A stretch of 30,234 nucleotides of DNA from a virus, in the IMG/VR virus record IMGVR_UViG_3300009373_000029, positions 1 to 30,234 of that record, one strand, 5' to 3'. Shown one piece after another: positions 1 through 28,012 of this stretch. The notes below the pieces were generated by a model. That model saw only the letters and a list, made by a program, of their open reading frames with translations, was not told the DNA's origin and did not search any database. The position numbers were made by a program, and so were the translations under genes. Position 1 is the first letter of the stretch. Each line of letters begins with the position of its first letter.

Positions 1-378
1 GTGTCCTTTAACTGCACTTCCATAAATCTTCTGTTTAAGTTTGTGAAGCTCAGCTTTTGCATTAACTTCCTCTTGCCAAGTGAAGGCTTCCCGCTGGATA
101 TTCTCCTCTAACTCAAGCTCTTTCTTCTCAAGTTCGTTCAGGTCCTTTCGAAACTTAACCTCAATTGAGCCCCACCTCTCCTCATTTTTAGTCCGTTTGA
201 GTATTGAGAGGCAGGCTCGGAGCCTTCTCTCACCAGCTATTAACCTGTTCTTGTCATCTATTACAATTGGGTGGATTAAACCATAGGTCATAATAGATTG
301 GGCAAGTTTGTCTACTCCCTCAAACTTCTTTCTAAACCTACTTCCTACTTGGATTTCGGTTATTTTAATTTTGGGCAT
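1..378 (-). CDS. ParB-like N-terminal domain protein (partial, runs off left end)
   Basis: The 126 visible residues read as the ParB/Srx-type N-terminal domain: an opening ITEIQVGSRFRKKF, then DKLAQSIMTYGLIHPIVI, the diagnostic box LIAGERRLRA (about residues 47-56), and later ELELEENIQREAFTW. This is the order seen in ParB-family proteins, which bind CTP or act as DNA-binding/nuclease modules; phages often carry such proteins outside any partition locus. The C-terminus is missing. The ATG at 378 overlaps the TGA of the upstream gene and is preceded by GGAGGAG. Family assignment is firm. The role, whether regulator, nuclease or segregation factor, is not shown by the fragment. Confidence 0.85.
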   Translation of the reverse strand, partial: MPKIKITEIQVGSRFRKKFEGVDKLAQSIMTYGLIHPIVIDDKNRLIAGERRLRACLSILKRTKNEERWGSIEVKFRKDLNELEKKELELEENIQREAFTWQEEVNAKAELHKLKQKIYGSAVKGH

Positions 379-758
379 CACTCCTCCAATATTTTAATTT
401 TGGTGAATTTGAGTCCTATTGCTTCTTTGTGAGTCATTGTCTTTCCGTCTACTACTACTATTCGTGAGCTAGGTAGACCCTTTATTGGGTTTAGTTTCTT
501 ATCTTTATCTACTGATATCATAAAGGGCGGCTGGTCTGGTTTAAGCTCTGGTTGGATTACTACGGGTTTAGTTGGCTCTGGTTTAATCTTATCATCTTTT
601 CCACAGAGGTGCGTAATGTCAATTGTGTCCTTTCCCTCAAGTCCACTGATTATCTCATCAAGCATGAGCTTAGCACAGTCTGCTTTAATCTCAAGCTCGT
701 GTATGTCCTTGGTGGTGTTAAGCATCTTACTTACTGCTCTAAGCATGTTTATTATCAT
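378..758 (-). CDS. Hypothetical protein, proline-rich middle
   Basis: A 126-residue protein not recognised. It starts MIINMLRAVSKML. The ATG at 758 was chosen over an upstream one at 779 because AAGGAGGACTT directly precedes it and the upstream ATG lies inside the repeat element at 771-791. An amphipathic N-terminal part (1-45) is followed by a linker rich in K, P and Q and a C-terminal block containing SSRIVVVDGKTMTHKEAIG. It lies directly downstream of one copy of the palindromic element, so it and the ParB-like gene may form a separately controlled unit at the end of the leftward operon. Confidence 0.7.
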   Translation of the reverse strand: MIINMLRAVSKMLNTTKDIHELEIKADCAKLMLDEIISGLEGKDTIDITHLCGKDDKIKPEPTKPVVIQPELKPDQPPFMISVDKDKKLNPIKGLPSSRIVVVDGKTMTHKEAIGLKFTKIKILEE

Positions 759-3584: not shown

Positions 3585-4436
3585 TCAATTCACCCCCTTC
3601 CCCTTAATCTCAACTGAACAGTGCCCCCACTCTTGAAACCTATTAAACTTCACCTTTACATCACATGGGTTGCACACCCCATATTCTTCACATCTTCTAA
3701 ACCCTCTAATTAACTTAACCTTATCATTTAATATGTGACCCATTGGGTTAATATCATTGTAGAGGTCATGATGACATCTAAAAATAAAACCAGAGGGGTT
3801 TATCAAGAGCTCAGAAGGCTTACACTTAACAGTTAGTTTTCTAAGTTTAGTGCAAGCATTTTGATATTTGTAAGTGTTCTTCTCCCAACCAGTGCTTAAA
3901 AACCTTTTAGTTCTAAAGTCTATGCCCCTCTCCTTACACATCCTAATCATAGACCTGTTAGTGTTCATAAACATAATATTATCAAATCCCCAGATGCCCA
4001 CCTTATACCCCATCTTTTGAAGGGTGTGAACCTTGCTAACCATCTCAGCTTGATTGGTTTTTTTGTGTAGGCTAAACCTAATACTGGCATATTTAGCTCT
4101 TCTTTTAAATACGTAAGGGTCAACTCTACTTACGAACTCATCCAGGTTAAACATACCATTAGTTACTAGGTCTAACCCTATCCCCTTACGATATAAACCA
4201 TCTACTATGGTATAAAATTGTGGGTGGATAGTCGGCTCTCCTCCTTGGAGAGTAAGAGGTAGGTCTGCTCTGTTCTGTATGCGAGCCAAACCATCTATCC
4301 ACCCCGTAGCTCCTAACTCCTCCGTCTTAACGAGCCTGTCGAACCTATTGATACAGTAGGTGCAAGCCATGTTACACCGAAAAGTTAAGAAAACTCCTAC
4401 GTAGTTATAAGTTTTGGGTAGTGTGATTGGTCTCAT
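3585..4436 (-). CDS. Radical SAM enzyme with C-terminal cysteine cluster
   Basis: A 283-residue protein. The radical SAM CX3CX2C motif is Cys21, Cys25, Cys28 (FRCNMACTYC), followed by the glycine/glutamate motif LQGGEPTIHP used for SAM binding. The C-terminus has several cysteines and histidines (FRCHHDLY, RRCEEYGVCNPCDV, GHCSVE), like SPASM or twitch auxiliary Fe-S domains. Such enzymes make a 5'-deoxyadenosyl radical to modify peptides, nucleotides or sugars; the substrate here is unknown. It overlaps the end of the E1-beta gene by 32 bases, so the two are probably translated together. Alternative: a tRNA or peptide modifying enzyme. Confidence 0.88.
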   Translation of the reverse strand: MRPITLPKTYNYVGVFLTFRCNMACTYCINRFDRLVKTEELGATGWIDGLARIQNRADLPLTLQGGEPTIHPQFYTIVDGLYRKGIGLDLVTNGMFNLDEFVSRVDPYVFKRRAKYASIRFSLHKKTNQAEMVSKVHTLQKMGYKVGIWGFDNIMFMNTNRSMIRMCKERGIDFRTKRFLSTGWEKNTYKYQNACTKLRKLTVKCKPSELLINPSGFIFRCHHDLYNDINPMGHILNDKVKLIRGFRRCEEYGVCNPCDVKVKFNRFQEWGHCSVEIKGKGVN

Positions 4437-4944
4437 ATAAGTCCTTTTCTTCTATTACCAAAGTTGGTAATGGTGAGATAAACATACTGTTGTAGAGGCT
4501 TTGTATTCTCTCAGGTTTTACTAATCGGACGGTTGTGATGTGGGGCTCAAACACGTTGGTGAAGTCATGGTTGTGTTGAAGACCTACATCAAATTTGCCA
4601 TCCTGGGAACCAATTATCGCTCTGATTAGGATTGGAAGAGTGAATTGCCCACCACTCATCTTCGGCACTAGAGCCATGTGGTTTATAATTGCATCGGCGG
4701 CTATTAGCATGAAGTCCATTCTTTGGAACACCACTATAGGTTTGTAGCCTTGCATCGCAAGACCTATTGCAGCCCCTGCAATTAAGTTTTCGCAGATGGG
4801 CATCTCTAAGCATTTTTTCGCATTTACTTTGGTCATGGTGCCATATATATCTCCTGCGTTTTTTAACCCTTCTCCGAGGAACACGGTCTTTGGTTGTTCT
4901 CCTAGCCATGTCATCACCTCCGTTAGTTCTTGTTTATAGGTCAT
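4405..4944 (-). CDS. TPP enzyme, E1-beta-like pyrimidine-binding subunit (minimal)
   Basis: A 179-residue protein matching the transketolase pyrimidine-binding domain of E1-beta dehydrogenase subunits. It has MPICENLIAGAAIGLAMQGY with the expected catalytic Glu52 that activates thiamine diphosphate, then DFMLIAADAIINHMA, the hallmark MSGGQF, LPILIRAIIG, and a QHNHDFTNVFEPHI segment like the family QHSQS...F.H. The usual C-terminal transketolase domain (about 130-150 residues) is absent; the protein ends soon after VIEEKDLYE. The partner E1-alpha-like gene lies three genes upstream. Together they could form a minimal heteromeric TPP decarboxylase, ligase or transketolase. It starts at ATG 4944, overlapping the zinc ribbon gene, with AAGGAG in front. 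Confidence 0.85.
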   Translation of the reverse strand: MTYKQELTEVMTWLGEQPKTVFLGEGLKNAGDIYGTMTKVNAKKCLEMPICENLIAGAAIGLAMQGYKPIVVFQRMDFMLIAADAIINHMALVPKMSGGQFTLPILIRAIIGSQDGKFDVGLQHNHDFTNVFEPHITTVRLVKPERIQSLYNSMFISPLPTLVIEEKDLYETNHTTQNL

Positions 4945-5087
4945 ATTATCTCCTTTATTTTCTCTTTTTTATATTCATAGCCGCACAAAGGGCATTTTTC
5001 GTGTTGAATGCCAAACTCTGCATGGCAGTTACCACATGTTACTTCAACTTTTACAATCCCTAATCTAATTAGGTCTTTAAGTTTCAT
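4941..5087 (-). CDS. Small zinc-ribbon protein between TPP subunit genes
   Basis: A 48-residue ORF, MKLKDLIRLGIVKVEVTCGN and onward, with two zinc knuckles, CGNC and CPLCGY, separated by about ten residues: a complete four-cysteine ribbon. It ends with a basic helix (KKEKIKEII). Its TGA overlaps the E1-beta ATG. No clear ribosome site precedes ATG 5087, so it may depend on coupling to the broken gene upstream. Such ribbons often bind nucleic acid or act as protein adaptors; the role here is unknown. Confidence 0.65.
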   Translation of the reverse strand: MKLKDLIRLGIVKVEVTCGNCHAEFGIQHEKCPLCGYEYKKEKIKEII

Positions 5088-5238
5088 TAGTTTGTTTTTG
5101 CCTTATGCTGTCAAGCACCTCCCATGTAGTGGGTTTATCAAGCCGCTTTAGAAATCGTATTTACCTTTCCAAAGGATAAAACCCTTGGTGCCATAGAAAT
5201 AACAATTTCCATAAGAAACCATATTCCTTTACTTTCAT
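5077..5238 (-). pseudogene. Small gene interrupted by an in-frame TAA
   Basis: A strong site (AAAAAGGAGGTAGTT) precedes ATG 5238. The first 25 codons read MKVKEYGFLWKLLFLWHQGF then YPLER, followed by TAA (5161-5163). The same frame then continues for 27 coding-looking codons (IRFLKRLDKPTTWEVLDSIR and onward) to a TAA at 5077 that overlaps the next gene's start. The second part has no start codon of its own, so this looks like one 53-codon gene with a nonsense codon. A real 25-residue peptide, or a sequencing error, cannot be excluded. Confidence 0.5.
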
Positions 5239-5265
5239 AACTACCTCCTTTTTCTAACTACAATT

Positions 5266-5460
5266 TTAACACCCCATCCCTTCTACTGTTGCCTGTTTTA
5301 TTATATCTTCTTGGGGGACACTTACATAGTGATGTTTACAAATCCAGACCTTCTTCCCATTGTGTTCTACCACCTGAAAATCTTTGGTAATGGGTTTCTT
5401 GCAGATAGGGCACTGACCCTTATCTACTCTACTAGATACAATGTTATTACATTGAGACAT
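5266..5460 (-). CDS. Small zinc-finger protein
   Basis: A 64-residue protein starting MSQCNNIVSSRVDKGQCPIC. Metal ligands are CPIC followed about 23 residues later by ICKHH, a treble-clef or ribbon-like arrangement (CX2C...CXHH). ATG 5460 was preferred over an in-frame GTG six bases upstream; both lie in the last codons of the E1-alpha gene, with GGGGGTAGG upstream. It sits between the two TPP subunit genes, so it may be a small accessory of the same pathway or an unrelated phage zinc finger. Confidence 0.7.
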   Translation of the reverse strand: MSQCNNIVSSRVDKGQCPICKKPITKDFQVVEHNGKKVWICKHHYVSVPQEDIIKQATVEGMGC

Positions 5461-6085
5461 GTGCACCTACCCCCACGTGAGGCCACCTTCTCACATAGTT
5501 ATACCTTATTATATTCCTCGCAACCATTGGTGTAAAGTTATGCCATCTCTCTTCTTTGGTGCTCTCCACCGCAAGGTCATTATCCTCTATTATGAAGGTG
5601 AGAGGTAGACTGCGGGAGTTGCCAAACCTCACTGCCTCCATAAAATGCCCAGTGTCTTCTCCACCATCTCCCACGAAGCACCAGACATGACCTTTAGACC
5701 TCTTCTTTTTTAATCCAAGGGCTAGACCTACAGCAATAGCACACCCTCCACCCACTATCGCTGAGGTTAGGAAGTTAATTGACTTATCGTAGATGTGCAT
5801 GCTCCTTCCCTCTCCTTTGCAGATGCCACTCTTCCTACCTAAGATTTCATCATGGAGCTTTTGGGCATCTCCTCCTTTTAAGAGATAGTGGTAATGGTTT
5901 CTATGAGAACTAACTACCCAATCTTTAGGTTTAATTGAACTAAAGAGTGAGATTAGCTGCTCCTCATTTCCTCCTGATAAGTGGATGGGGCAGGAAATCT
6001 TACCTTGTTTAAATAAAGTCTTAATGTTCTCCTCAAACCCTATGAGCTCTTCCTTTGTCCATCTCTTATTAGGTATACTCTTCAT
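5447..6085 (-). CDS. TPP enzyme, E1-alpha-like diphosphate-binding subunit (minimal)
   Basis: A 212-residue protein aligning by eye with E1-alpha dehydrogenase subunits: SSHRNHYHYLLKGGD (61-73, compare RDHGH.L..G.D), ILGRKSGICKGEGRSMH (81-97), AIVGGGCAIAVGLALG, and the thiamine diphosphate/magnesium motif starting GDG at 139-141 and ending at Asn169 (FIIEDND). Family E1-alpha chains are 320-360 residues; this one stops after the cofactor domain. With the E1-beta-like subunit it would bind TPP at a shared interface and act on a 2-keto acid or ketose; the substrate is unknown. It starts at ATG 6085 with an ATGA overlap to the membrane protein gene. Confidence 0.86.
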   Translation of the reverse strand: MKSIPNKRWTKEELIGFEENIKTLFKQGKISCPIHLSGGNEEQLISLFSSIKPKDWVVSSHRNHYHYLLKGGDAQKLHDEILGRKSGICKGEGRSMHIYDKSINFLTSAIVGGGCAIAVGLALGLKKKRSKGHVWCFVGDGGEDTGHFMEAVRFGNSRSLPLTFIIEDNDLAVESTKEERWHNFTPMVARNIIRYNYVRRWPHVGVGAHVSM

Positions 6086-6297
6086 CTTAATATCTTTGAT
6101 ACCTCCATCATCGCCTCTACTTTACCGTTTATGAGCAATGGGTGATAAATACCCTGTTGACTTTTAATTACATCAAGGTATTTATTCATGCTCTTTAATA
6201 TCCTTATGCTCTCCCTTATCTTACCTATTTCAAACCAGACCTTCGCTGTTATTATAAGACATAAAATGTGGAATAAAGTAACTATCAAAGTCCCCAT
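6082..6297 (-). CDS. Small membrane-anchored protein
   Basis: A 71-residue protein with one hydrophobic N-terminal segment (about residues 3-22, LIVTLFHILCLIITAKVWF) and a charged cytoplasmic-type tail with helix-forming repeats (KIRESIRILKSMNKYLDVIK). It overlaps the radical SAM gene upstream by 13 bases and the E1-alpha gene downstream by four. It may tether the encoded pathway to the membrane, but it could equally be an unrelated phage membrane peptide. Confidence 0.7.
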   Translation of the reverse strand: MGTLIVTLFHILCLIITAKVWFEIGKIRESIRILKSMNKYLDVIKSQQGIYHPLLINGKVEAMMEVSKILR

Positions 6298-7643
6298 ACT
6301 CTCCTCCTTGTCTCTAATCTAATCCGATTTAGCTCTTCCAGGGAAACTCCCATCATCCCTGCTATCTTTTTAGCCTTAAGAGTTGAGCTAAAGTTAATCC
6401 TATCCCACTCATAGGCTCTAATCATAGTTATCTCCTTAGAGGTGAACTCTGAGGTCTCTATTTGACCCTCTCTCCAGCTATCTCCCTCTTTTAGGCACTT
6501 CCCTTTGACGCACATGTCCCACAGGCGAGTATGTTTAAGAGGGGTGGCTGTAAAGACCTTAGTATAATCGGCGTCTATATACTCGGCTACTTTAAGGGTC
6601 TTTCTAATCTCAGTCCAGGTCTCCCCTGGGAAACCTATGATGAAATTAGCCGCCACAAAGATACCATACTCTTTAGCATCTTGTATAACACATTTGGCGT
6701 CTTCTAAGTCTATCCTTTTACCTATGATTTCCCTTTGAACTCTCCTGCTTCCACTCTCAATGGCTACATCGATATACTTACAGCCGCTCTTAGCCATAAG
6801 TCCAATCATCTCATCATCCATTTTGATTACTGAGGTAGCTATCATAGACCAAGGCATAGTGAGACCTCTCCTAATCATCTCTTGGAAAAGACTCTTAGCC
6901 CTCTTCTCATTATATAGTAGGTTATCGTCGTCAAAAATAAGAGACTTAATCTTATAATCCTTCTTAAGCCAGCTAATCTCTTCAATAACATTTTCTACAC
7001 TCCTTCCTCTCCAGCGTTTGCCCATTATCTCCTCTACTTGACAGAAACAACACCCATACGGACAGCCCCTAGACGTTATAATGCGTCCATAAGGATACGA
7101 ACACGGAGCGTCTACACTTTTCCGTATGGGTGGTTTATTTATATATGATTTTAAATCAATTAAGTCGTATGCGGGTAGGGGGAGTTCATTTAACTTTTGG
7201 ATTGGGAGGGCTTGGTGAATACCATGCCAACTATAGCCAAGGGTTATTTGGTTCATTAGGTATTCTCCCTCTCCCTTGACTATTATATCTATCTCTGGAG
7301 CTTTTATTAAGATGTCAGCGTTCATACTGGGAGATACTCCTCCAACTACTACTTGTATTTTTTTAGATACAGCTTTAACTGCTTTGGCGGCTCTAAGAGT
7401 GGCTCCAAGTTGAGAGTCTATCATAGTAGTTATACCTACCATGTCTGGTTTCTCTTTCTCTACACGTTTTGCAAATACTGATGTTTCTAAGTCCTCTTTA
7501 TAAGCATCTATTATATTTACCATAGTCCCATTCTTTCTAACTTTGGCGGCAAGGAGGCATAGATTGTAAGGTATGTAATCCCAGAGGAAATCCTTGTTTG
7601 TCTCACTCCATCTAAAGTTGGGGACTACAAGGGTTAGGTTCAC
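6285..7643 (-). CDS. B12-binding-domain radical SAM enzyme
   Basis: A 452-residue protein with two domains. Residues 1-150 follow a Rossmann-like cobalamin-binding layout (MNLTLVVPNF, PDMVGITTMIDSQ, QVVVGGVSPSM, IIVKGEGEY), but I see no DxHxxG histidine motif, so any cobalamin would be held base-off without that ligand. Residues 180-430 are the radical SAM barrel with SRGCPYGCCFC (Cys194, Cys198, Cys201), FDDDNLLYN, AIESGS and FIIGFPGET. The family includes methyltransferases, cyclases and hopanoid/bacteriochlorophyll enzymes. The substrate here is unknown. It is translationally coupled on both sides (ATGA overlap upstream; 13-base overlap downstream). Confidence 0.88.
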   Translation of the reverse strand: MNLTLVVPNFRWSETNKDFLWDYIPYNLCLLAAKVRKNGTMVNIIDAYKEDLETSVFAKRVEKEKPDMVGITTMIDSQLGATLRAAKAVKAVSKKIQVVVGGVSPSMNADILIKAPEIDIIVKGEGEYLMNQITLGYSWHGIHQALPIQKLNELPLPAYDLIDLKSYINKPPIRKSVDAPCSYPYGRIITSRGCPYGCCFCQVEEIMGKRWRGRSVENVIEEISWLKKDYKIKSLIFDDDNLLYNEKRAKSLFQEMIRRGLTMPWSMIATSVIKMDDEMIGLMAKSGCKYIDVAIESGSRRVQREIIGKRIDLEDAKCVIQDAKEYGIFVAANFIIGFPGETWTEIRKTLKVAEYIDADYTKVFTATPLKHTRLWDMCVKGKCLKEGDSWREGQIETSEFTSKEITMIRAYEWDRINFSSTLKAKKIAGMMGVSLEELNRIRLETRRRVWGL

Positions 7644-8113
7644 AAGTCCTCCCTATTATCCCTCATCATGTTTAATGTCTCTTTGTTAAGTATCCTAAAT
7701 GAGTGTAATTGCCTTCTAAACTCAAACTCTACCATCTCCTCCTCATAGAATACATACTCTATTACGGCCTTTCTGCCTGCTATTGAGATAGGTAGACATA
7801 CTCTTATATGACGAGAATGATTATGTATTGTCATTTCTTCTGGGTAATACTTAATAAAGTTAAATATCCTGCCCCTGATATAATTAGCAAGCCTTGTCCT
7901 AATCTTCTTCTGGCTCCATTTGTAATTAAGGCGTTCTTGTAACCAATTTCCTATAGCGTGTATTTCTTCTCTCCTTTTAGGAGCATTCTTAATAAACCTG
8001 TGTATAGTATTGTTAATCCTCCTATCAGGATTGTTTTGGGACACCAGCTGGGGTCTTAATCCCGTGGTGAGTGGAAGTGTCATTATAAGTAACATTAAAC
8101 ATACCCTATCCAT
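7640..8113 (-). CDS. Hypothetical basic protein with hydrophobic N-terminus
   Basis: A 157-residue protein if started at ATG 8113 (MDRVCLMLLIMTLPLTTGLR), which gives a short hydrophobic N-terminus that could be a signal or anchor. The remainder is rich in Arg, Asn and aromatic residues (NNTIHRFIKNAPKRREEIHA, RLANYIRGRIFNFIKYYPEE, IEYVFYEEEMVEFEFRRQL). A GTG-started version reaching to 8185 is possible but would run through the small ORF at 8106-8189. No family is recognised. It ends in an ATGA overlap with the B12 radical SAM gene. Confidence 0.65.
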   Translation of the reverse strand: MDRVCLMLLIMTLPLTTGLRPQLVSQNNPDRRINNTIHRFIKNAPKRREEIHAIGNWLQERLNYKWSQKKIRTRLANYIRGRIFNFIKYYPEEMTIHNHSRHIRVCLPISIAGRKAVIEYVFYEEEMVEFEFRRQLHSFRILNKETLNMMRDNREDL

Positions 8114-8189
8114 ATCCACAGTCAGGTTCCCCCTCACTATCCTCAACTGCCCACTCACATATGTGTGGAATTTGACTCTCACCACTCAT
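8106..8189 (-). CDS. Possible acidic microprotein
   Basis: A 27-residue ORF, MSGESQIPHICEWAVEDSEG then EPDCGYG. It fills the gap between the DUF6165-like gene and the ATG at 8113, which it overlaps (ATGGATAG). No ribosome site is evident. It has two cysteines and a strongly acidic end. Its coding status rests only on tiling and protein-like composition. Confidence 0.35.
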   Translation of the reverse strand: MSGESQIPHICEWAVEDSEGEPDCGYG

Positions 8190-8214
8190 AATACACTTTG
8201 TGAAAGGGCAAAGT

Positions 8215-8592
8215 TTACTGCGACTGATGCCTAATTTTAACCTCTCTAAACCCCTTCTTAGTAGTCCTGTTAATCTCATTTTTATACTCCACTCTCTTCC
8301 TGTTAAGGTTTCTAATAGCTATTGCCCTTCTCCCTATCTCAGAGAGAGTAAACTTCTTCTCGCCGCCTTTCCTAATTTCATTCTCCAGGTTCCAAATGTC
8401 TATATTTGCCATAGTAAGTCTAATAGTTGCTGTTATTAAGTGAGAATTTATTCCTGAAGCATTGAGTCCCTTGATTATACTTTGGTATTCAGGATATGCT
8501 GCTTCCTCACCAAAATATATTTTACGAATGAGAATTGAAAGCTTGTCTATTACATCACCAAGAGAGTATTGAGGTAGTTTAGACTTTTTCAC
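8215..8592 (-). CDS. DUF6165-like protein
   Basis: A 125-residue protein with features I associate with the DUF6165 family: an opening YSLGDVIDKLSILIRKIYF, a middle NIDIWNLENEIRKGG, and an end AIRNLNRKRVEYKNEINR followed by FREVKI. Family members are often found near polysaccharide or glycan genes; no reaction is established that I can name. It uses GTG 8592 with AAAGGATAAAAATT upstream. It stands at the head of the tightly packed radical SAM/TPP run, hinting that the pathway may concern a sugar-like or surface molecule (inference). Confidence 0.6.
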   Translation of the reverse strand: MKKSKLPQYSLGDVIDKLSILIRKIYFGEEAAYPEYQSIIKGLNASGINSHLITATIRLTMANIDIWNLENEIRKGGEKKFTLSEIGRRAIAIRNLNRKRVEYKNEINRTTKKGFREVKIRHQSQ

Positions 8593-8791
8593 AATTTTTA
8601 TCCTTTCTATGAATTGTCATGTGCTCACTAAATGTGACAACTGCACTACTACCGCAGTATACGTATTTTGTTATTTGACAGTATACTCTGTTTATATGCC
8701 TTTTTTTATGGGTGTATTCAACGTATGGTCTACCATTTTTATATTTTACTTTGTTAATATTTATAGGTGTTCCATTATAACTCCATAACTT
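8579..8791 (-). pseudogene. Open frame with zinc-finger-like end but no normal start codon
   Basis: A 70-codon open frame between a TGA (8792-8794) and TAA (8579-8581). It reads like a real protein: NGTPININKVKYKNGRPYVE, then RVYCQITKYVYCG, then EHMTIHRKDKNCEKV, with C, C, H, H and C in a finger-like spacing. It contains no ATG, GTG or TTG before the late Met. It begins where the upstream zinc-ribbon gene ends, so a +1 frameshift at that stop (TTA-TAA) would fuse the two. Alternatives are a rare ATA/ATT start, a degraded gene, or an assembly indel. Confidence 0.45.
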
Positions 8792-8978
8792 TCAATAATA
8801 TACTAAAACATCTCTTGCAAACGTGCATCTTCTTAACAAATTCTATTCTATTAGGGGGAGATAATAGAATACCTCCAAACTCTTCAAGTCTTTCTTTACA
8901 AAAATAGCAGATAGGTTTTATGCCTATTCCCTCTTTTCTCCTTCTTCTCCTAGCATCGCTATACTTATGCTTCCCCAT
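8775..8978 (-). CDS. Small basic zinc-ribbon protein
   Basis: A 67-residue protein starting MGKHKYSDARRRRRKEGIGI. The cysteine pairs CYFC and CKRC, separated by about 36 residues, form a four-cysteine zinc site. The N-terminal Arg/Lys run suggests nucleic-acid binding. The ATG at 8978 has GGGAGGATTT upstream, so it is preferred over upstream in-frame ATGs. The stop is followed directly by an open frame in another phase (8579-8791). Confidence 0.65.
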   Translation of the reverse strand: MGKHKYSDARRRRRKEGIGIKPICYFCKERLEEFGGILLSPPNRIEFVKKMHVCKRCFSILLKVMEL

Positions 8979-9042
8979 AAATCCTCCCATCATTTATCAT
9001 CTTACACACTTCCATTAGGTCTTTGTCTACTTTCTCTCTCAT
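8965..9042 (-). CDS. Microprotein whose start codon lies in a palindromic element
   Basis: A 25-residue ORF, MREKVDKDLMEVCKMINDGR then IYGEA. The ATG is formed by the last bases of the element at 9042-9062 (TTGAAATTATG) and there is no ribosome site between. The same geometry occurs at 21660. It overlaps the zinc-ribbon gene start. It may be a true microprotein or a leader peptide. Confidence 0.4.
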   Translation of the reverse strand: MREKVDKDLMEVCKMINDGRIYGEA

Positions 9043-9062
9043 AATTTCAATTTTTGAACTTA
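9042..9062 (-). repeat. Oriented palindromic junction element, copy 2
   Basis: Minus-strand reading TAAGTTCAA-AAA-TTGAAATTA. It starts right after the TAG of the upstream membrane microprotein (9063) and its end supplies the A of the downstream ATG. Both half-sites and the spacer match copy 5 at 21640 exactly. Confidence 0.8.
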
Positions 9063-9158
9063 CTACTTCCAAAGTAATGCACACACCACATAAGCAATCC
9101 CATTAACTATTAGTGTTATCCCTATCAGCATCATCGTTGGGTTTTTAACCTCTATCAT
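9063..9158 (-). CDS. Single-pass membrane microprotein
   Basis: A 31-residue ORF, MIEVKNPTMMLIGITLIVNG then IAYVVCALLWK, essentially one transmembrane helix (about residues 9-29) with a short charged N-terminus. Its ATG overlaps the TGA of the preceding small gene, and an AAAAGGAGG site lies about 15 bases upstream. It ends immediately before a palindromic element. Unknown function; size and topology would suit a membrane-modulating phage peptide. Confidence 0.6.
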   Translation of the reverse strand: MIEVKNPTMMLIGITLIVNGIAYVVCALLWK

Positions 9159-9253
9159 TGTTTGCCCCCGCCTCCTTTTCCTTCTGCCATTAAATTATCC
9201 ATTATTCTTAACATTTCCTTTTCACTTACAACATCCCCTAATTTATATGTCAT
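9155..9253 (-). CDS. Small hypothetical protein
   Basis: A 32-residue ORF, MTYKLGDVVSEKEMLRIMDN then LMAEGKGGGGKQ. ATG 9253 has AAGGAGAGGACTAAT upstream. An amphipathic helix is followed by a glycine tail. It lies between the two-helix membrane protein and the membrane microprotein and is coupled to the latter (ATGA). Function unknown. Confidence 0.5.
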   Translation of the reverse strand: MTYKLGDVVSEKEMLRIMDNLMAEGKGGGGKQ

Positions 9254-9283
9254 ATTAGTCCTCTCCTTCCCCTAAATCTTCTT

Positions 9284-9967
9284 TTACCCTTCATTCTCTT
9301 TTATTACATCCTCGATTTTTAAATCATCACCCCATTGGGATATATAAAATAAATCTTTACAATCTTTCACCATGCCAAAAACTATCGGGTCGGGAACATT
9401 TTGCACATGTGCAACAACAAACTCCGAAAAACAATCTAATTTTTTTGCTTTAACTACATTGTCCAGCACATATTCAGGGGGTGTTGTGTCCCATTCTCTT
9501 AATGGTGTTAACTTTACCTCCTTTTGCTTGTTAACCCTTTCGGATACTTTACCACCATAATGCAATAAACAGATAAAGCCAGCTAGGCAGACTCCAGAAA
9601 TAATGGACGGCCACAATAAGACATTGTTTTCTTTGACCAAGTAAGACAAGCTAGTAATTGACACAAATAAACTTAATAAAGCACCCAAAAAAGTTAGGTT
9701 AGCTAATAGCTGTAGTCTCTTACGGTTGTTTAAACTTTTCTCAAAATCGTCCAAATTTTTAGGTGTTACATATTTATAATGTTCATATGCTACTGCTCTT
9801 CCCTTTGATACAACAACCTTAGATTTAATGCATTCTAACACTTTAACTAGCCCACACATTTCCAGCTTCGCTAAATAATCTTCAATGTGTGGATTAAGCT
9901 CAACTGCTTCTCTTTTTTTAGCTTTCTCAGCTAACTTAAGTAATGCCCATTTGTCTCCCATTTTCAT
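9284..9967 (-). CDS. Two-helix membrane protein of unknown function
   Basis: A 227-residue protein. Residues 1-85 are soluble and look like a small helical/winged unit (ALLKLAEKAKKREAVEL, LAKLEMCGLVKVLECIKSK). Two transmembrane helices follow (about 88-110 and 117-137), then a soluble C-terminal domain ending VFGMVKDCKDLFYISQWGDD. It starts at ATG 9967 behind AAGGAGGAGAG. The two-helix hairpin between soluble domains recalls membrane-linked sensor or exclusion proteins, but nothing specific is recognised. Confidence 0.7.
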   Translation of the reverse strand: MKMGDKWALLKLAEKAKKREAVELNPHIEDYLAKLEMCGLVKVLECIKSKVVVSKGRAVAYEHYKYVTPKNLDDFEKSLNNRKRLQLLANLTFLGALLSLFVSITSLSYLVKENNVLLWPSIISGVCLAGFICLLHYGGKVSERVNKQKEVKLTPLREWDTTPPEYVLDNVVKAKKLDCFSEFVVAHVQNVPDPIVFGMVKDCKDLFYISQWGDDLKIEDVIKENEG

Positions 9968-10034
9968 CTCTCCTCCTTATCTATTAACCCCTCCTCAATA
10001 TCACAGGTTCTTTAACTAAACATTCATTACAAAA

Positions 10035-10142
10035 CTAAGCCTTAACTTTTTTATTAGGCGCAAAATCAAATACAGGCCTCCACTTACCATTACCCTTAGT
10101 AATCTCAAAGTATTTATTGCAATGATAGCAGTTGTTACTCAT
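10035..10142 (-). CDS. Zinc-knuckle protein, apparently cut short by an in-frame TAG
   Basis: A 35-residue ORF starting MSNNCYHCNKYFEITKGNGK and ending APNKKVKA, with GAGGAGAAGCC before ATG 10142. It holds one CX2C knuckle (CYHC). After the TAG (10035-10037) the same frame continues FCNECLVKEPVILRRG to TAA at 9984, supplying exactly the second CX2C knuckle needed for a four-cysteine zinc site. A TGG-to-TAG or CAG-to-TAG change, or readthrough, would explain it. Confidence 0.65.
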   Translation of the reverse strand: MSNNCYHCNKYFEITKGNGKWRPVFDFAPNKKVKA

Positions 10143-10158
10143 TGGCTTCTCCTCTATT

Positions 10159-12192
10159 CTAAATAAAGTTAATATGCTCAGGTGGATTAAGGTAGTTCCA
10201 TATGAATGCATTTGTGAAATCATGGCGGCACGAGCCAGCACACATAGTATGCACATCAAAATCTTCCCTCATATACTTAATTATATGCCAATACCTATCA
10301 CTATCAATAATCTCTTTTAGAGTATTTTTCTTAAGGTCACCATAACAATAATCACTATTATTGAATAGATAACCACAAGGGTAGCATTTAGAATTCCCAC
10401 TAATTTGAAAAATAAGGGGACAATCTACACATCTATCATAAGGTCTCCTACCCTTACTCGCTATCATCCCCCATTTAGGGACAATTTTAGTCTTATCATT
10501 AGATAGCTTCTGAGCTTGTTTCAACACCTCTAACACTCTCTTATTATCATACCAGTTTAAATTAAAGTGGGACATACCCTTACACCCTGGGTCAGAGAAC
10601 TGTTTAATTACGAAATAGTCAACTCCCTCTCTTACTGCCCACTTAGCCTCTGGTATTACTTGCTCAAGACAGTCAGGTATAAACACCATCTGAAGTCCAA
10701 TGGTGCACTTATACCCTTTAGTTTTCTTAATATAGATTGCAGAACGGATAGCGGCCTGCACACGCTCCCACTGAGGAACACCATGAATGGTTTTATATCC
10801 TCCTGAGTCAACGGCAGATAGGTTGAAGCGAAGCCATGTGCAGGTGGAGAGAAGAATTCTTAACTTAGTCTCATCTAAAAAGATACCATTTGTTGCAAAT
10901 CCTATGTCTAACCCCCACTTCTTACCCTCAATACAAGCATCATAGACGGCTGGGTTAAGTGTAGGCTCCCCATCTCCCGTGAGGGTAAGAGACTTAACTC
11001 CCAAGTATGGGGCATCTATAAAAAGTTTAATGAGTATATCTCTTGGTATAACATCCATTGACATCTTTTGATGTATACCATAACAATTGTGAACACAAAG
11101 TCCTTTTGCAATAAATGTATGACTTTCGGTTGTTAGGTCATACACTTCAGTAACTCTTCCGATTGACACAAAATTAACTCTTAATACGCCCTCAATTTTA
11201 CAATCAAAAGCTTTTTCAAACTTTCTTGTTATAGCGGGAGTTGTTACTTGCATAAATCTAATACGATTTTCATAACCTTTTGTAACTCTTACCACTTTTA
11301 CACTTTTACCATAATCCTCTAACGTGTTTGGAATGTGGAGCTTGTTCAATGACAATGTTATCATATGCAATACAGAAGTGTCGCTATTAGATATTCTCAA
11401 ATTGTTTCCGCTTATACTTCCTTCAGCGTCAAAAATACCTCCAAGGTATCCTCTGTAGAAGCTTTGACTTTGCCCCAACAATAAGTCTTTGTAACTTATA
11501 AATTTTTTAAGAAGATGTGTGTGCTCTTTTCCTATTACATAAAGCTTATGCTTACTTCTTTTATAAGAAACAATGAAACCTATATCAATTAGGTATTGAT
11601 AGGCTCTATCAAGGGCTTCTATGTCAATCATGTCCAATCTCATATGATAGGTAGAGTATCTAGGTGATATATTAAATGTGCCATCACCATCTATTATTCC
11701 TTTTACATAACCTATTTTGTAATCTCTATCTATTAACTGTATAGGTATTTGCTTTCCTATGTAATGAACATCATTATTATTCGTTAGTTTTCCAGCATCT
11801 TTCCATCCTCTATGTTTGACAAGGACTTGGTGGTCTGGAGTAATCTCTAATGTTTCTCCATTTGTAAAGTGCACTACATTGGTGATAGCCATTCTTTTGT
11901 GGATATCTGTAACAGTGGTATATTTTAATCTTCTTTGCTTATGTATATTTCCAATCTCATCAAAACCTATAACAGTGTCCCCAACCTTGACATCTTTTAT
12001 TGGCTTTGTGCCCAAAGGTGTGGTTATTGGTGTATCTCCTGTTACACAATAAATACATTTAGCATTACACCTCTTAGTAGCACCAATATCTATATGGAGG
12101 GGATATATTTTCCAACTGTTTCGGTAGTGGTTATTAACCCTGTCCAGGTGCCATAAGAGTTTACACCCATCAAAAAGGTAGGGGTTATCCAC
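10159..12192 (-). CDS. Radical SAM/SPASM-type enzyme containing an intein
   Basis: A 677-residue precursor. The host enzyme is about 356 residues after removal of a 321-residue intein (residues 49-369). The spliced core motif is RCNAKCIYC (Cys42, Cys46 and the Cys following the intein), then TLTGDGEPTLNP, GFATNGIFL and LRFNLSAVD. The C-terminus carries a SPASM-like cysteine set (RCVDCPLIFQISGNSKCYPC, YCYGDL, CAGSCRHD) for auxiliary Fe-S clusters. Such enzymes commonly modify peptides or other substrates by radical chemistry; the substrate is unknown. The start is GTG 12192 inside the end of the preceding gene. Without splicing the SAM cluster could not form, so activity must depend on the intein. 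Confidence 0.88.
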   Translation of the reverse strand: MDNPYLFDGCKLLWHLDRVNNHYRNSWKIYPLHIDIGATKRCNAKCIYCVTGDTPITTPLGTKPIKDVKVGDTVIGFDEIGNIHKQRRLKYTTVTDIHKRMAITNVVHFTNGETLEITPDHQVLVKHRGWKDAGKLTNNNDVHYIGKQIPIQLIDRDYKIGYVKGIIDGDGTFNISPRYSTYHMRLDMIDIEALDRAYQYLIDIGFIVSYKRSKHKLYVIGKEHTHLLKKFISYKDLLLGQSQSFYRGYLGGIFDAEGSISGNNLRISNSDTSVLHMITLSLNKLHIPNTLEDYGKSVKVVRVTKGYENRIRFMQVTTPAITRKFEKAFDCKIEGVLRVNFVSIGRVTEVYDLTTESHTFIAKGLCVHNCYGIHQKMSMDVIPRDILIKLFIDAPYLGVKSLTLTGDGEPTLNPAVYDACIEGKKWGLDIGFATNGIFLDETKLRILLSTCTWLRFNLSAVDSGGYKTIHGVPQWERVQAAIRSAIYIKKTKGYKCTIGLQMVFIPDCLEQVIPEAKWAVREGVDYFVIKQFSDPGCKGMSHFNLNWYDNKRVLEVLKQAQKLSNDKTKIVPKWGMIASKGRRPYDRCVDCPLIFQISGNSKCYPCGYLFNNSDYCYGDLKKNTLKEIIDSDRYWHIIKYMREDFDVHTMCAGSCRHDFTNAFIWNYLNPPEHINFI
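11086..12048 (-). mobile_element. Intein with LAGLIDADG homing endonuclease
   Basis: Residues 49-369 of the precursor. The N-terminal splice block starts CVTGDTPI (Cys49). Block B has EITPDHQV (Thr118, His121). Two LAGLIDADG motifs are present, YVKGIIDGDG (162-171) and YLGGIFDAEG (249-258). Block F is VYDLTTESHTFIAKG, and block G ends LCVHN with penultimate His368 and terminal Asn369, followed by the +1 Cys370. All residues for standard class 1 splicing and both catalytic aspartates are present, so splicing and homing both look intact. The insertion point is between Tyr48 and the third Fe-S cysteine of the radical SAM motif. Confidence 0.93.
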
Positions 12193-12653: not shown

Positions 12654-12879
12654 GGTTCTTCTCCTTAAGATAAATGTTTCCAAATTTATCCATCATGACT
12701 TCGTCTTCGTCTATGCTGTAGCGAGGGAAGCCATACTCACATTGCCAGACGCCTTTACTTAACCTAACTAGAGGTCTCCCACAACTACATTTGGCGTTCC
12801 CATCAAAGATTGCGAACCACTGCCCTCCACTTAGCATCTCACTTTTATAATCCCCTTCAAACGGGACTCTCTCACTCAC
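12640..12879 (-). CDS. Small zinc-binding-like protein
   Basis: A 79-residue protein from GTG 12879 (MSERVPFEGDYKSEMLSGGQ). Cysteines occur as KCSCGRPL and WQCEYGF, giving three or four potential zinc ligands. The GTG lies in the last codons of the AAA+ gene, with GGGGAAGA upstream. Probably a small accessory of the ATPase or simply a co-transcribed phage protein. Confidence 0.6.
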   Translation of the reverse strand: MSERVPFEGDYKSEMLSGGQWFAIFDGNAKCSCGRPLVRLSKGVWQCEYGFPRYSIDEDEVMMDKFGNIYLKEKNHDPN

Positions 12880-13969
12880 TCTTCCCCTCTTTCCTAACCT
12901 TCTCTATAACCTTTTCAAAGTCATTACCCATACCAATATCCTGCACAACATTATCCCCCACTATTTTAAAATGCTTTCTCCTATTAAATGCATCTTTTCC
13001 TTGAAGCTCAGTCTCAACTCCCTTATTAAAGTCATTTAACTCAATAGCCTTCTTCTTACCATAGGCTGCCTTCCTAGCTCCCAACAGGATTGCATTTTTA
13101 ATCTGACCTCCAGTGAGGTCATGGGTAGATAAAATCTCAAAGCAGACACATTTAGCTAACGGTGCCTCTTTAGGGATTAGGTTTCTCCAGATTTTTGCTC
13201 GGGACGCCTTGTCTGGTTTAGTGAACTCAAGCTTAAGACATATCCTTCTTTCAAGTGCGGGGTCTAACTCATGGCTTCTATTAGTGGTGAGGATACAGGT
13301 CCCCTCAAACCGCTCAATCTCGGTGAGGAGGGTATTTATCTCAGCGGCTAGGATAGCTCCCACCTTATTCCTGCTGTATACTAGACTATCGCACTCATCT
13401 AATATTACTACTGCATCTTTAGAATGGGCAGAGGAAAATGCCTTGGCTATATTCCTCTCTGCCTGTCCTGGGACTGAGCTCTGGATATTTTTGGTGCTTA
13501 ACATTAAATAATCTTTACCAAGAGCCTCCGCAATAGCTTCAGCACACATAGTCTTCCCAGTTCCTGGAGGTCCCCAGAAGAGGAGGATAGCACCCTTCCC
13601 CTTCTCAATAGTAGAGGCAAACCCCCACTCCTGAAATATCTTCTCACTTATCTCAGCGTTAGATTGGGAGATTGTCTCTAAGATTAACTGCTTAACCTTC
13701 TCAGGGAGGACTAATATATTCATCATACTATTAACCTTCTTCCTCTTCTTAATCTCCTGTCTCCCTATTACCCTGAACTCGGCTTGGGTGATATAACTTC
13801 GCCCAACATCTAATATGTAATGCTTACCTTGACAATAGCCAGTAATAGTATACTCCTTACCTATGGTGTAACTATGACTACAAGTATTACTCATAACCAC
13901 CACCTTAGTTCCAAGAGGCAGTAACTTAACTGGCAGCTCTGGTCTTCTCAGCCAATCCTCTGAAGTCAT
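12872..13969 (-). CDS. AAA+ ATPase
   Basis: A 365-residue protein. The N-terminal 80 residues form a small beta-rich domain (LPLGTKVVVMSN, GKEYTITGYCQGKHYILD). The AAA+ module follows: Walker A GPPGTGKT at 133-140, Walker B VVILDECDSL from about 187, sensor 1 CILTTNRSHELDPALERR with a candidate arginine finger pair, then a helical lid. This resembles classical FtsH/katanin/p97-type AAA cores used as remodelling or unfolding motors. The start is ATG 13969 with GAAAGGAGGGAAAG. It is the first large gene of its cluster, downstream of element copy 3, with three small genes coupled behind it that may encode partners. Substrate unknown. Confidence 0.88.
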   Translation of the reverse strand: MTSEDWLRRPELPVKLLPLGTKVVVMSNTCSHSYTIGKEYTITGYCQGKHYILDVGRSYITQAEFRVIGRQEIKKRKKVNSMMNILVLPEKVKQLILETISQSNAEISEKIFQEWGFASTIEKGKGAILLFWGPPGTGKTMCAEAIAEALGKDYLMLSTKNIQSSVPGQAERNIAKAFSSAHSKDAVVILDECDSLVYSRNKVGAILAAEINTLLTEIERFEGTCILTTNRSHELDPALERRICLKLEFTKPDKASRAKIWRNLIPKEAPLAKCVCFEILSTHDLTGGQIKNAILLGARKAAYGKKKAIELNDFNKGVETELQGKDAFNRRKHFKIVGDNVVQDIGMGNDFEKVIEKVRKEGKSE

Positions 13970-27082: not shown

Positions 27083-28012
27083 ATGGCGAAGAAGAAAGTA
27101 AAAGAGGAGAAAATAGTTCCAAAGATACTGATAGGGGTTCCCATCCTAAGTTGGTCTCACGAGTTCGCTGAGAGCTTCCTTAGGTTTTGGACAGAGCTTA
27201 TGACTTATAGGCATAAGGGAACTAAGTTTCATGTTGCGTATAAGTTTATGCACAGAATGCCCGTTCACATGGCTGAAGAGAGGCTCGTGGACCTAGCAAT
27301 CGAAAGTGGTTGCACTCATCTTTTACTAATGGATGATGATGTTTACGACGTAACAGCAGATATGTTTCTTAAACTGTTGAGTGACGATAAGGATATAGTT
27401 GGGGGTGTAATGCACGCTTCAGGCTTTCCTTATGCGATGTGTGCTTTTAGAAGATATGATACCAAGCAGAAGGTGGCTAATATGCCAATTCTTAAAGGTC
27501 CAGCTCGTCTTTATGAGGTGCCTCCAGACCAAAGGAAGGGTCTTCAAAAGGTAGACCTTATGGCTTACTGTTTTACCCTATTTAAAGTTGATGTCTTCAA
27601 GAAGCTTAAAAAACCTTGGTTTAAATGTAATACCCAGGCACCCACCGACAGTTGGTTTAGTGATAGTGTGTTGGATGCAGGCCTCGAATACTATGTTGAC
27701 TTCAGCATTTGGGTCAATCATAGGGGAGTAACTATACAGAACGTAGCACTCTGGCGTCAAATGGGGAGTCTTAAAATTCAAAATGATGCAGCTAGGATGA
27801 TAGTGCTATCCCCAGAAGAGATGAGAAGACATGAGGCTTACATGACACTTAGACTTGAGACCGCTGAGAAAGCGTTAAAGTCTGAGGCTAAGGAGAAACT
27901 AACTTTCTTTCAAAAGAAGAGGGGGAAGAACCCAATAGGAACTGTTGTTGTAAAGGATGGGAAGGATGAGAAGGGAACTTTAGGTAAACGGGAAGTCAAC
28001 AAACGACACTAA
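27083..28012 (+). CDS. Glycosyltransferase-like protein (GT-A fold)
   Basis: A 309-residue protein. An N-terminal strand ILIGVPILSW starts a nucleotide-sugar-binding fold. RLVDLAIESGCTHLLLMDDD carries the DxD-type metal/sugar-nucleotide motif (Asp84-86). Later VGGVMHASGFPYAMCAF and VDLMAYCFTLFKVDVFKKL match the acceptor-side region of GT2-like enzymes, then WFSDSVLDAGLEYYVDFSIW. The C-terminal 70 residues are basic and helical. It lies among virion genes, so it may glycosylate a structural protein or a host surface sugar. ATG 27083 has AAAGGAAGGG upstream. The fold is confident, the substrate unknown. Confidence 0.75.
   Translation: MAKKKVKEEKIVPKILIGVPILSWSHEFAESFLRFWTELMTYRHKGTKFHVAYKFMHRMPVHMAEERLVDLAIESGCTHLLLMDDDVYDVTADMFLKLLSDDKDIVGGVMHASGFPYAMCAFRRYDTKQKVANMPILKGPARLYEVPPDQRKGLQKVDLMAYCFTLFKVDVFKKLKKPWFKCNTQAPTDSWFSDSVLDAGLEYYVDFSIWVNHRGVTIQNVALWRQMGSLKIQNDAARMIVLSPEEMRRHEAYMTLRLETAEKALKSEAKEKLTFFQKKRGKNPIGTVVVKDGKDEKGTLGKREVNKRH

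Follow-up and report, generated by a model that had tools for sequence, protein, structure and literature searches.

A conserved viral gene neighbourhood joins radical SAM enzymes to an exchangeable thiamine pyrophosphate enzyme

Gene layout and enzymes of the locus

We analysed a 30,234-base stretch of viral DNA (IMG/VR record IMGVR_UViG_3300009373_000029, positions 1 to 30,234; hereafter the window, meaning this whole stretch) in which a run of genes between positions 3585 and 12192 combines radical S-adenosylmethionine (SAM) enzymes with a split thiamine pyrophosphate (TPP) enzyme. The conserved core of this module is a SPASM radical SAM enzyme, a second radical SAM enzyme (rSAM2) and the pair of TPP subunits, E1alpha and PYR, and the B12-binding radical SAM enzyme of the window is a variable component. 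The window is a fragment, and a 50,508-base contig extends its record with 4 mismatches over 30,234 bases. Its left half is a minus-strand operon of recombination-type and metabolic genes and its right half a mainly plus-strand operon of structural genes, both assigned partly by reading. All enzyme genes from 3585 to 12192 lie on the minus strand and most adjacent pairs overlap by 4–32 nt, in agreement with the translational overlaps described in the initial annotation of this DNA; a 321-nt apparent gap upstream of PYR contains an open reading frame (ORF) of 48 aa that runs 4 nt into the start of PYR, and about 180 nt remain without a gene. The features are as follows, with E values given after the family or structure matched.

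3585–4436, minus strand: rSAM2, radical SAM enzyme (Pfam PF04055, 7.6e-8; eight-member alignment)
4405–4944, minus strand: PYR, E1beta-like subunit, 179 aa (PF02779, 9e-11; profile against 3exe_B, 1.5e-20)
4941–5087, minus strand: Cys-rich, zinc-ribbon-like ORF, 48 aa (sequence reading; no conserved match in the small-ORF comparison)
5266–5466, minus strand: zinc-ribbon-like ORF, 66 aa (weak zinc-finger matches, all below the Pfam cut-off)
5447–6085, minus strand: E1alpha-like subunit, 212 aa (PF00676, 3.5e-21; profile against 1ni4_A, 3.2e-19)
6082–6297, minus strand: membrane peptide, 71 aa (ORF reading)
6285–7643, minus strand: B12-binding radical SAM enzyme, 452 aa (PF02310, 7.9e-17; PF04055, 1.4e-25)
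7640–8185, minus strand: 181-aa protein (no Pfam family above cut-off)
8215–8592, minus strand: D6165, four-helix protein of DUF6165/DUF4254-like type (DUF4254, 2.4e-4, below cut-off; AlphaFold)
10159–12192, minus strand: SPASM radical SAM enzyme, 677 aa including an intein (Radical_SAM, 9.9e-9; SPASM, 2.5e-4)
11086–12048, minus strand: LAGLIDADG intein, 321 aa, at aa 49–369 of the preceding protein (PF14528, 2.3e-11; TIGR01443/TIGR01445)
27083–28012, plus strand: GT-A-fold glycosyltransferase-like protein (AlphaFold, Foldseek, invariant DDD)

The two TPP subunits named in the initial annotation are confirmed by Pfam, with scores well above cut-off (E1_dh, PF00676, 75.9 against 22 bits; Transket_pyr, PF02779, 42.2 against 27 bits), and their profiles align with human pyruvate dehydrogenase (PDH) E1alpha (1ni4_A) and E1beta (3exe_B), respectively. 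E1alpha keeps a GDG...EDN sequence, whose GDG...N we take to be the TPP/Mg motif, and PYR keeps E52 and H124, presumably the catalytic Glu and His. PDH E1alpha/E1beta are the nearest solved structures and share with the phage subunits the fold family, the TPP motif and the E1beta Glu and His, a likeness that favours an auxiliary metabolic role in which the E1-like enzyme would replace host PDH E1 and boost the energy of infection. However, the phage E1alpha lacks the C-terminal part of E1alpha, PYR lacks Transketolase_C and matches Transket_pyr alone, and no E2 or E3 was found among the 22 Pfam-scanned proteins of the window and extending contig (a selection of the ORFs), so the pair lacks these marks of the E1 of a 2-oxo acid dehydrogenase complex. 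It also differs from PDH in having radical SAM enzymes as partners. With the TPP enzyme swapped in other loci for a transketolase- or acetolactate synthase (ALS)-type one, such a role appears extremely unlikely.

Both subunits match a single PHROG (phrog_34187), a 405-position fused protein family of unannotated function; in cyanophages S-SM2 and P-TIM68 the annotation of this fused protein reads 'transketolase central region'. The cyanophage protein shares both TPP domains with the window pair, with 47% identity over E1alpha, but is one chain of about 400 aa rather than two. At least 543 IMG/VR stretches encode E1alpha relatives, 80 of which were analysed. E1alpha also matches 8 named phage records, two of them Acinetobacter-labelled contigs; in the one inspected, acetoin and housekeeping genes surround the match.

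All three radical SAM enzymes of the initial annotation, including one B12-type and one SPASM enzyme, are confirmed by Pfam. rSAM2 is a 283-aa protein with the motif CNMACTYC and conserved C-terminal Cys residues of the auxiliary-cluster type; C21, C25, C28, C205, C221, C249, C255 and C258 are invariant in the eight-member alignment. The SPASM domain model matches the protein at 10159–12192 only, barely above its cut-off, and not rSAM2. The radical SAM/SPASM hallmarks (CX3CX2C, PF04055 and SPASM-type Cys residues) are present, the motif at 10159–12192 being complete only after intein splicing. The B12 enzyme carries the motif CPYGCCFC and matches both PF02310 and PF04055 above cut-off, as is characteristic of cobalamin-dependent radical SAM proteins. 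It has only distant relatives (24–27% identity) in 4 of the related loci compared; 7 named phage records match it distantly and over part of its length, and among viral contigs only its own near-identical contigs were found. A search of 50,697 named phage records for rSAM2 found nothing at 1e-5, and the PDB relatives of the radical SAM enzymes, sought for a substrate clue, are generic (anSME, PqqE, SkfB, MoaA and DesII). Separately, the Pfam radical SAM model scores above cut-off nine times in a 735-kb phage (W03, LR756501.1).

The intein, which the initial annotation had overlooked, lies inside CX3CX2C (CNAKCIY/C, the slash marking the insertion), with the third cluster Cys as its +1 residue. 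Its Intein_splicing match (6.7e-8) is below cut-off; TIGR01443 and TIGR01445 match as well. Because the intein splits the motif, the SPASM enzyme should hold no cluster before splicing. Its ten best-listed relatives, 34–70% identical, are all intein-free. The Rv2578c family (NF038136) likewise comprises intein-containing radical SAM proteins; the window ORF matches it at 74.3 bits over residues 33–375, far below the family cut-off of 700. A divergent intein-like insert, 28% identical to that of the window over 88 aa, interrupts, at the same third Cys, a SPASM enzyme encoded on a 199-kb virus contig (L029:5154–7277; L numbers denote compared loci, with positions after the colon).

The smaller proteins of the module are less constant. 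D6165 had been described as DUF6165-like, a label that we rejected: it has no Pfam DUF6165 match at E<=0.1, and its only Pfam match, DUF4254, reaches 21.4 bits against a cut-off of 27. Its AlphaFold model is a confident four-helix domain (predicted local distance difference test score, pLDDT, 87.7). Searches of the PDB gave no convincing match to this fold (the best had E = 1.0) and no relative by sequence at E<=1, and named phage records yielded no match at 0.01; the word DUF6165 is absent from the portion of the open-licence PubMed Central (PMC) literature covered by our search. D6165 occurs in 13 of the 38 rSAM2 virus clusters described below. The membrane peptide and zinc ribbons that had been counted as module components exist as ORFs but are variable. 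The 71-aa membrane peptide, the zinc-ribbon-like ORFs of 66 and 72 aa and the 181-aa ORF (7640–8185) have no relatives at E<=1e-4 beyond near-identical contigs in the first set of related loci, the set in which they were sought. Comparison of ORFs of 20–110 aa between the window and L020, L021, L022, L025 and L125 found none conserved, all matches lying over or opposite conserved coding genes.

These small ORFs bear on a reading in which the SPASM enzymes mature a ribosomally synthesized and post-translationally modified peptide (RiPP), modifying a small phage-encoded substrate. SPASM radical SAM enzymes frequently act on peptides, and the family matches of rSAM2 include PqqE and maturases of mycofactocin and sactipeptides, each scoring far under its cut-off. 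Set against this are the absence of a conserved small ORF near the enzymes in the five-locus comparison and the lack of relatives of the 66-, 71- and 72-aa ORFs in the loci compared, and we regard RiPP maturation, and with it the peptide product proposed earlier, as very unlikely.

Conserved neighbourhood and exchange of the TPP enzyme

We searched viral sequences with an rSAM2-only alignment, a seed chosen to avoid circularity. Each search retained at most 80 loci, and clusters were defined at 90% identity of the seed protein. An rSAM2 ORF of at least 150 bits was present in 46 of the 57 loci recovered, forming 38 clusters, and the other 11 were dropped. Within 7 kb of rSAM2, TPP-enzyme genes occur in 33/38 clusters, a SPASM enzyme in 29/38 and both in 28/38; a B12 enzyme occurs in 7/38. 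By contrast, TPP genes are found at 1/13 other radical SAM loci (Fisher p = 4e-7), a control set that is not dereplicated, includes some loci that look alike and has its sole positive, L103, with transketolase-type halves. On this 235-kb virus contig, several proteins weakly resembling rSAM2/SPASM are encoded near these halves, and L103 is perhaps a further variant. The nearest TPP and radical SAM genes lie on the same strand in 32/32 virus representatives (one for each cluster that has TPP genes, except L026) and within 100 bp of each other in 17. The linked gene set suspected from the window alone therefore recurs across viruses, and scattered genes without a conserved neighbourhood were not seen in the 38 rSAM2 clusters.

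Gene order is partly conserved. The series SPASM, D6165, E1alpha, PYR, rSAM2 is shared by L021, L023, L024 and L025, and the order differs in L020. E1alpha and PYR of L021 are 64% and 59% identical, respectively, to those of the window. Distant viruses, among them a 735-kb phage and the members of a 35-locus cluster, keep a PYR–SPASM–E1alpha triple with a less related SPASM enzyme; in L077, which belongs to this cluster, the triple lies in the structural-gene region and adjoins two genes that read as glycosyltransferases. A TCP-1/cpn60 chaperonin gene is also present in one module-bearing virus contig (L037:6584–8005; PF00118, 7.2e-104), and a gene at L150:1499–2899 reads similarly.

Searches seeded with E1alpha distinguished split from fused TPP enzymes. 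SPASM or rSAM2 genes lie within 8 kb in 17/20 split and 0/11 fused clusters (Fisher p = 4e-6), and Pfam Radical_SAM matches over whole records occur in 17/20 split and 1/11 fused representatives. The two sets of 17 differ, with L026 only in the 8-kb set and L040 only in the whole-record set; 'split' here denotes an E1alpha ORF no longer than 330 aa, by which L040 (whose match is near a contig end) and L071 are possibly misclassed. The fused type of cyanophages adjoins alcohol dehydrogenase and heptose-pathway-like genes.

The TPP partner itself is exchanged. Among the 33 clusters it is E1-type in 18, transketolase-type in 9 and ALS-type in 6, and Pfam checks of examples recovered TPP_enzyme_N/M/C in L154 and L161 (ALS-type) and, for the transketolase type, Transketolase_N in L148, L164 and L318 and Transket_pyr plus Transketolase_C in L127. 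We placed these types on a quick rSAM2 tree of 67 rows (36/38 virus clusters and 31/35 of the chromosomal loci described below), in which 50 rows have one TPP type, 2 have two types and 15 have none in the stretch covered. TPP type changes at least 14 times on this tree, for example between the sisters L149 (transketolase) and L153 (ALS), although the number is approximate because 31 of 64 inner branches are weak. The radical SAM enzymes stay and the swapped partner keeps TPP chemistry, and this is the strongest argument for one common pathway.

A pathway might nevertheless be absent if separate glycan-tailoring genes had simply been gathered in one variable island. Varying gene order, the diverse glycosyltransferase-like and epimerase-like genes of several loci, and a B12 enzyme and small ORFs that come and go all speak for such an island. 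The excess of TPP genes over control loci, their uniform strand, the overlapping starts and stops, and the nearly exclusive use of one TPP type per locus argue against it, and we consider it unlikely.

Chromosomal versions and glycosyltransferase context

The module had been framed as phage-borne, but bacterial chromosomes carry the set too. Most of it is present in metagenome-assembled genomes (MAGs) titled Desulfobacterales (L107), Deltaproteobacteria (L108) and Nanoarchaeota (L111), the Nanoarchaeota genome having no rSAM2 match at 1e-15. At E<=1e-40, rSAM2 is found in 13/395 genomes from the phylum to which the Desulfobacterales MAG belongs and in 29/285 from that of an Omnitrophota MAG; the contigs concerned reach 2.6 Mb. 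We compared 35 chromosomal loci, namely L108, L111 and 33 further regions. Of these, 19 contain a GT9-like gene and 21 a GT2 gene belonging to one cluster, as counted from BLAST single-linkage clusters with Pfam (PF01075, PF00535) checked in one locus, L305, where GT9, E1, Transketolase_C, GT2, SPASM and radical SAM domains were all confirmed. Further genes in these loci read as membrane glycosyltransferases. TPP genes accompany SPASM or rSAM2 genes of at least 150 bits in 22/35 loci, on the same strand in 22/22 and within 100 bp in 14/22. The operon related to Desulfobacterales and Omnitrophota runs GT9–SPASM–E1alpha–E1beta–GT2–SPASM–rSAM2, the same set as the phage module in similar order; its proteins are mostly longer (E1alpha about 320–340 aa and E1beta about 350 aa, with Transketolase_C confirmed in L305), and it has extra membrane proteins. 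Viral and cellular rSAM2 sequences are largely separate on the tree (4 changes), so that nothing points to the gene having been captured recently from either phylum.

The window encodes a candidate glycosyltransferase of its own at 27083–28012, within the structural-gene operon. This protein has no Pfam match; its alignment contains an invariant DDD, in keeping with the DxD motif of GT-A enzymes, and its AlphaFold model (pLDDT 66.8 overall, good over about residues 1–214 only) has a GT-A fold. Foldseek against the PDB returned 228 matches at E<=0.001 (best 3.6e-9), the best listed being COLGALT1, LH3 and STIV A197, and nearly all of the 50 rows shown are, by title, glycosyltransferases or proteins with such a domain. 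Relatives of the protein adjoin the module in L126, L128, L130, L131, L133 and L162, which represent five clusters. Phage glycosyltransferases can act on DNA, and the module lies among replication/recombination-type genes (AAA_24, PDDEXK_1), as would suit hypermodified or marked phage DNA, with a modified base produced by the radical SAM and TPP enzymes and glycosylated by the GT-A protein. We judge this reading, which would have realized the modified nucleotide proposed earlier, highly improbable: no hydroxymethylase or base-modification gene was recognised among the proteins scanned, the chromosomal version sits among glycosyltransferase genes, and the listed GT-A fold matches are mostly protein or glycan glycosyltransferases.

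Other loci place related TPP enzymes among sugar genes. TPP pairs or fusions adjoin heptose-pathway-like genes, and of ten neighbouring proteins scanned against NCBIfam, seven have HddA, HddC, GmhA, HldE or HldD as best match, all below the curated cut-off. A phosphatase in L118 best matches a broad histidinol-phosphatase domain, with GmhB second and below cut-off; the annotated phosphoheptose isomerase of S-SM2 has no match at 1e-10; and the tenth neighbour is an alcohol dehydrogenase. A third lineage of split E1 pairs (L174–L253; 75 loci, being those of 80 with a detectable E1alpha ORF, forming 41 clusters) is often accompanied by a B12-type radical SAM gene, which lies within 7 kb in 28 clusters and directly beside the pair in 20; in L192, Radical_SAM is above and B12-binding just below the Pfam cut-off. 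These loci also hold genes reading as epimerases, kinases and aminotransferases. Surface-polysaccharide or lipopolysaccharide clusters of phages, such as T4-like cyanophages, are sugar islands annotated with epimerases, nucleotidyltransferases and glycosyltransferases, whereas the core in the window consists of radical SAM enzymes and an exchangeable TPP enzyme.

A few loci suggest a different use of the TPP product. Cytidylyltransferase-like and LicD genes (Pfam) adjoin SPASM and rSAM2 in L086, a cytidylyltransferase–methyltransferase fusion occurs in L150, and in L150 and L153 genes that read as aminotransferases are close to those for rSAM2 and ALS-type enzymes. Here the product of the TPP enzyme could end up not in a sugar ring but in a side group, an activated alcohol or aldehyde of phosphono- or other type. 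The steps would be TPP decarboxylation, transamination, activation by cytidine triphosphate (CTP) and transfer by LicD, and the radical SAM enzymes would supply the unusual precursor. This seems quite improbable to us, given that none of these genes was seen in the window, that GT9 and GT2 are the recurrent chromosomal neighbours, and that no phosphoenolpyruvate mutase was recognised on reading the gene maps, in which no dedicated search for it was made.

Elsewhere, matches to the phage terminase occur in 22 named phage records, with identities of 22–29% for the eight listed. Reading of window positions 1–381 with L017:4225–5493 indicates a 422-aa protein in which a ParB-like domain is apparently fused to a DNA methyltransferase-like domain. 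Window positions 12872–13969 encode an AAA+ ATPase in the phage operon (PF00004, 7.7e-25), and the right end of the extending contig encodes, after the structural genes, a 444-aa protein with a phosphoribosylglycinamide-synthetase ATP-grasp domain (L019:8851–10182; PF01071, 4.4e-11).

A candidate sugar pathway and its significance

We favour a reading, evenly poised in our judgement, in which the module builds or tailors an unusual sugar, destined for a glycan on the surface or the virion, by combining a TPP carboligase with radical SAM enzymes. The initial annotation had offered a sugar, nucleotide or peptide pathway; sugar is the best of these three guesses, and the other two found no support. 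We infer that a single pathway would link the genes. E1alpha and PYR would assemble a minimal TPP enzyme that works without E2/E3 partners, and its carboligase step would move a two-carbon unit from a donor, either a 2-keto acid or a ketose, onto the carbonyl of a sugar substrate or would form a related ketose. The sugar precursor in the phage would probably come from the host. Next in order, the two SPASM-type radical SAM enzymes would remodel the sugar by means of the 5'-deoxyadenosyl radical, with a B12-type helper in some lineages, and the product might arise by epimerisation, dehydration, oxidation or C-methylation. Glycosyltransferases (GT-A in the window, GT9 and GT2 types elsewhere) would then attach the sugar to its putative final acceptor, a surface glycan or virion protein.

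Several observations weigh against this sugar pathway. TPP genes are missing from 5/38 virus clusters, some of which are short or edge contigs, and L022 has E1alpha and SPASM with PYR not in the stretch covered. Among chromosomal loci, 13/35 lack a TPP gene or a 150-bit radical SAM enzyme in the ORF map, some of them at contig ends or through losses from the maps, which take non-overlapping ORFs by length and so lost rSAM2 of L294 and L307. The fused E1–PYR enzymes occur without SPASM or rSAM2 (0/11 clusters), and the TPP enzyme thus has uses outside the module. Matches to individual radical SAM families are generic and fall far short of cut-off. The window proteins scanned include no nucleotide-sugar or heptose gene, which also tells against the earlier description of the pathway as complete. 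Finally, because the heptose-like neighbours score below curated cut-offs, a heptose is not required, and the data would suit other, related sugars.

Phage and viral sugar-gene islands are already known; for the core of radical SAM and TPP enzymes, no published description was found in the portion of open-licence PMC papers covered. A lasting SPASM-type pair that works with whichever TPP enzyme is available (E1-, transketolase- or ALS-type) could be an undescribed route, spread across viruses, uncultivated bacteria and archaea, to a sugar or sugar-like building block new to chemistry that decorates the host surface or particles, a tentative view that we place slightly short of an even chance. 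The repeated exchange of three TPP subfamilies is a natural experiment that shows which chemistry is required and gives several proteins for testing. The operon in the phyla of the Desulfobacterales and Omnitrophota MAGs points to a surface component of uncultivated microbes not yet known, and viruses that carry the module may use it to change receptors, block rival phages or coat their virions.

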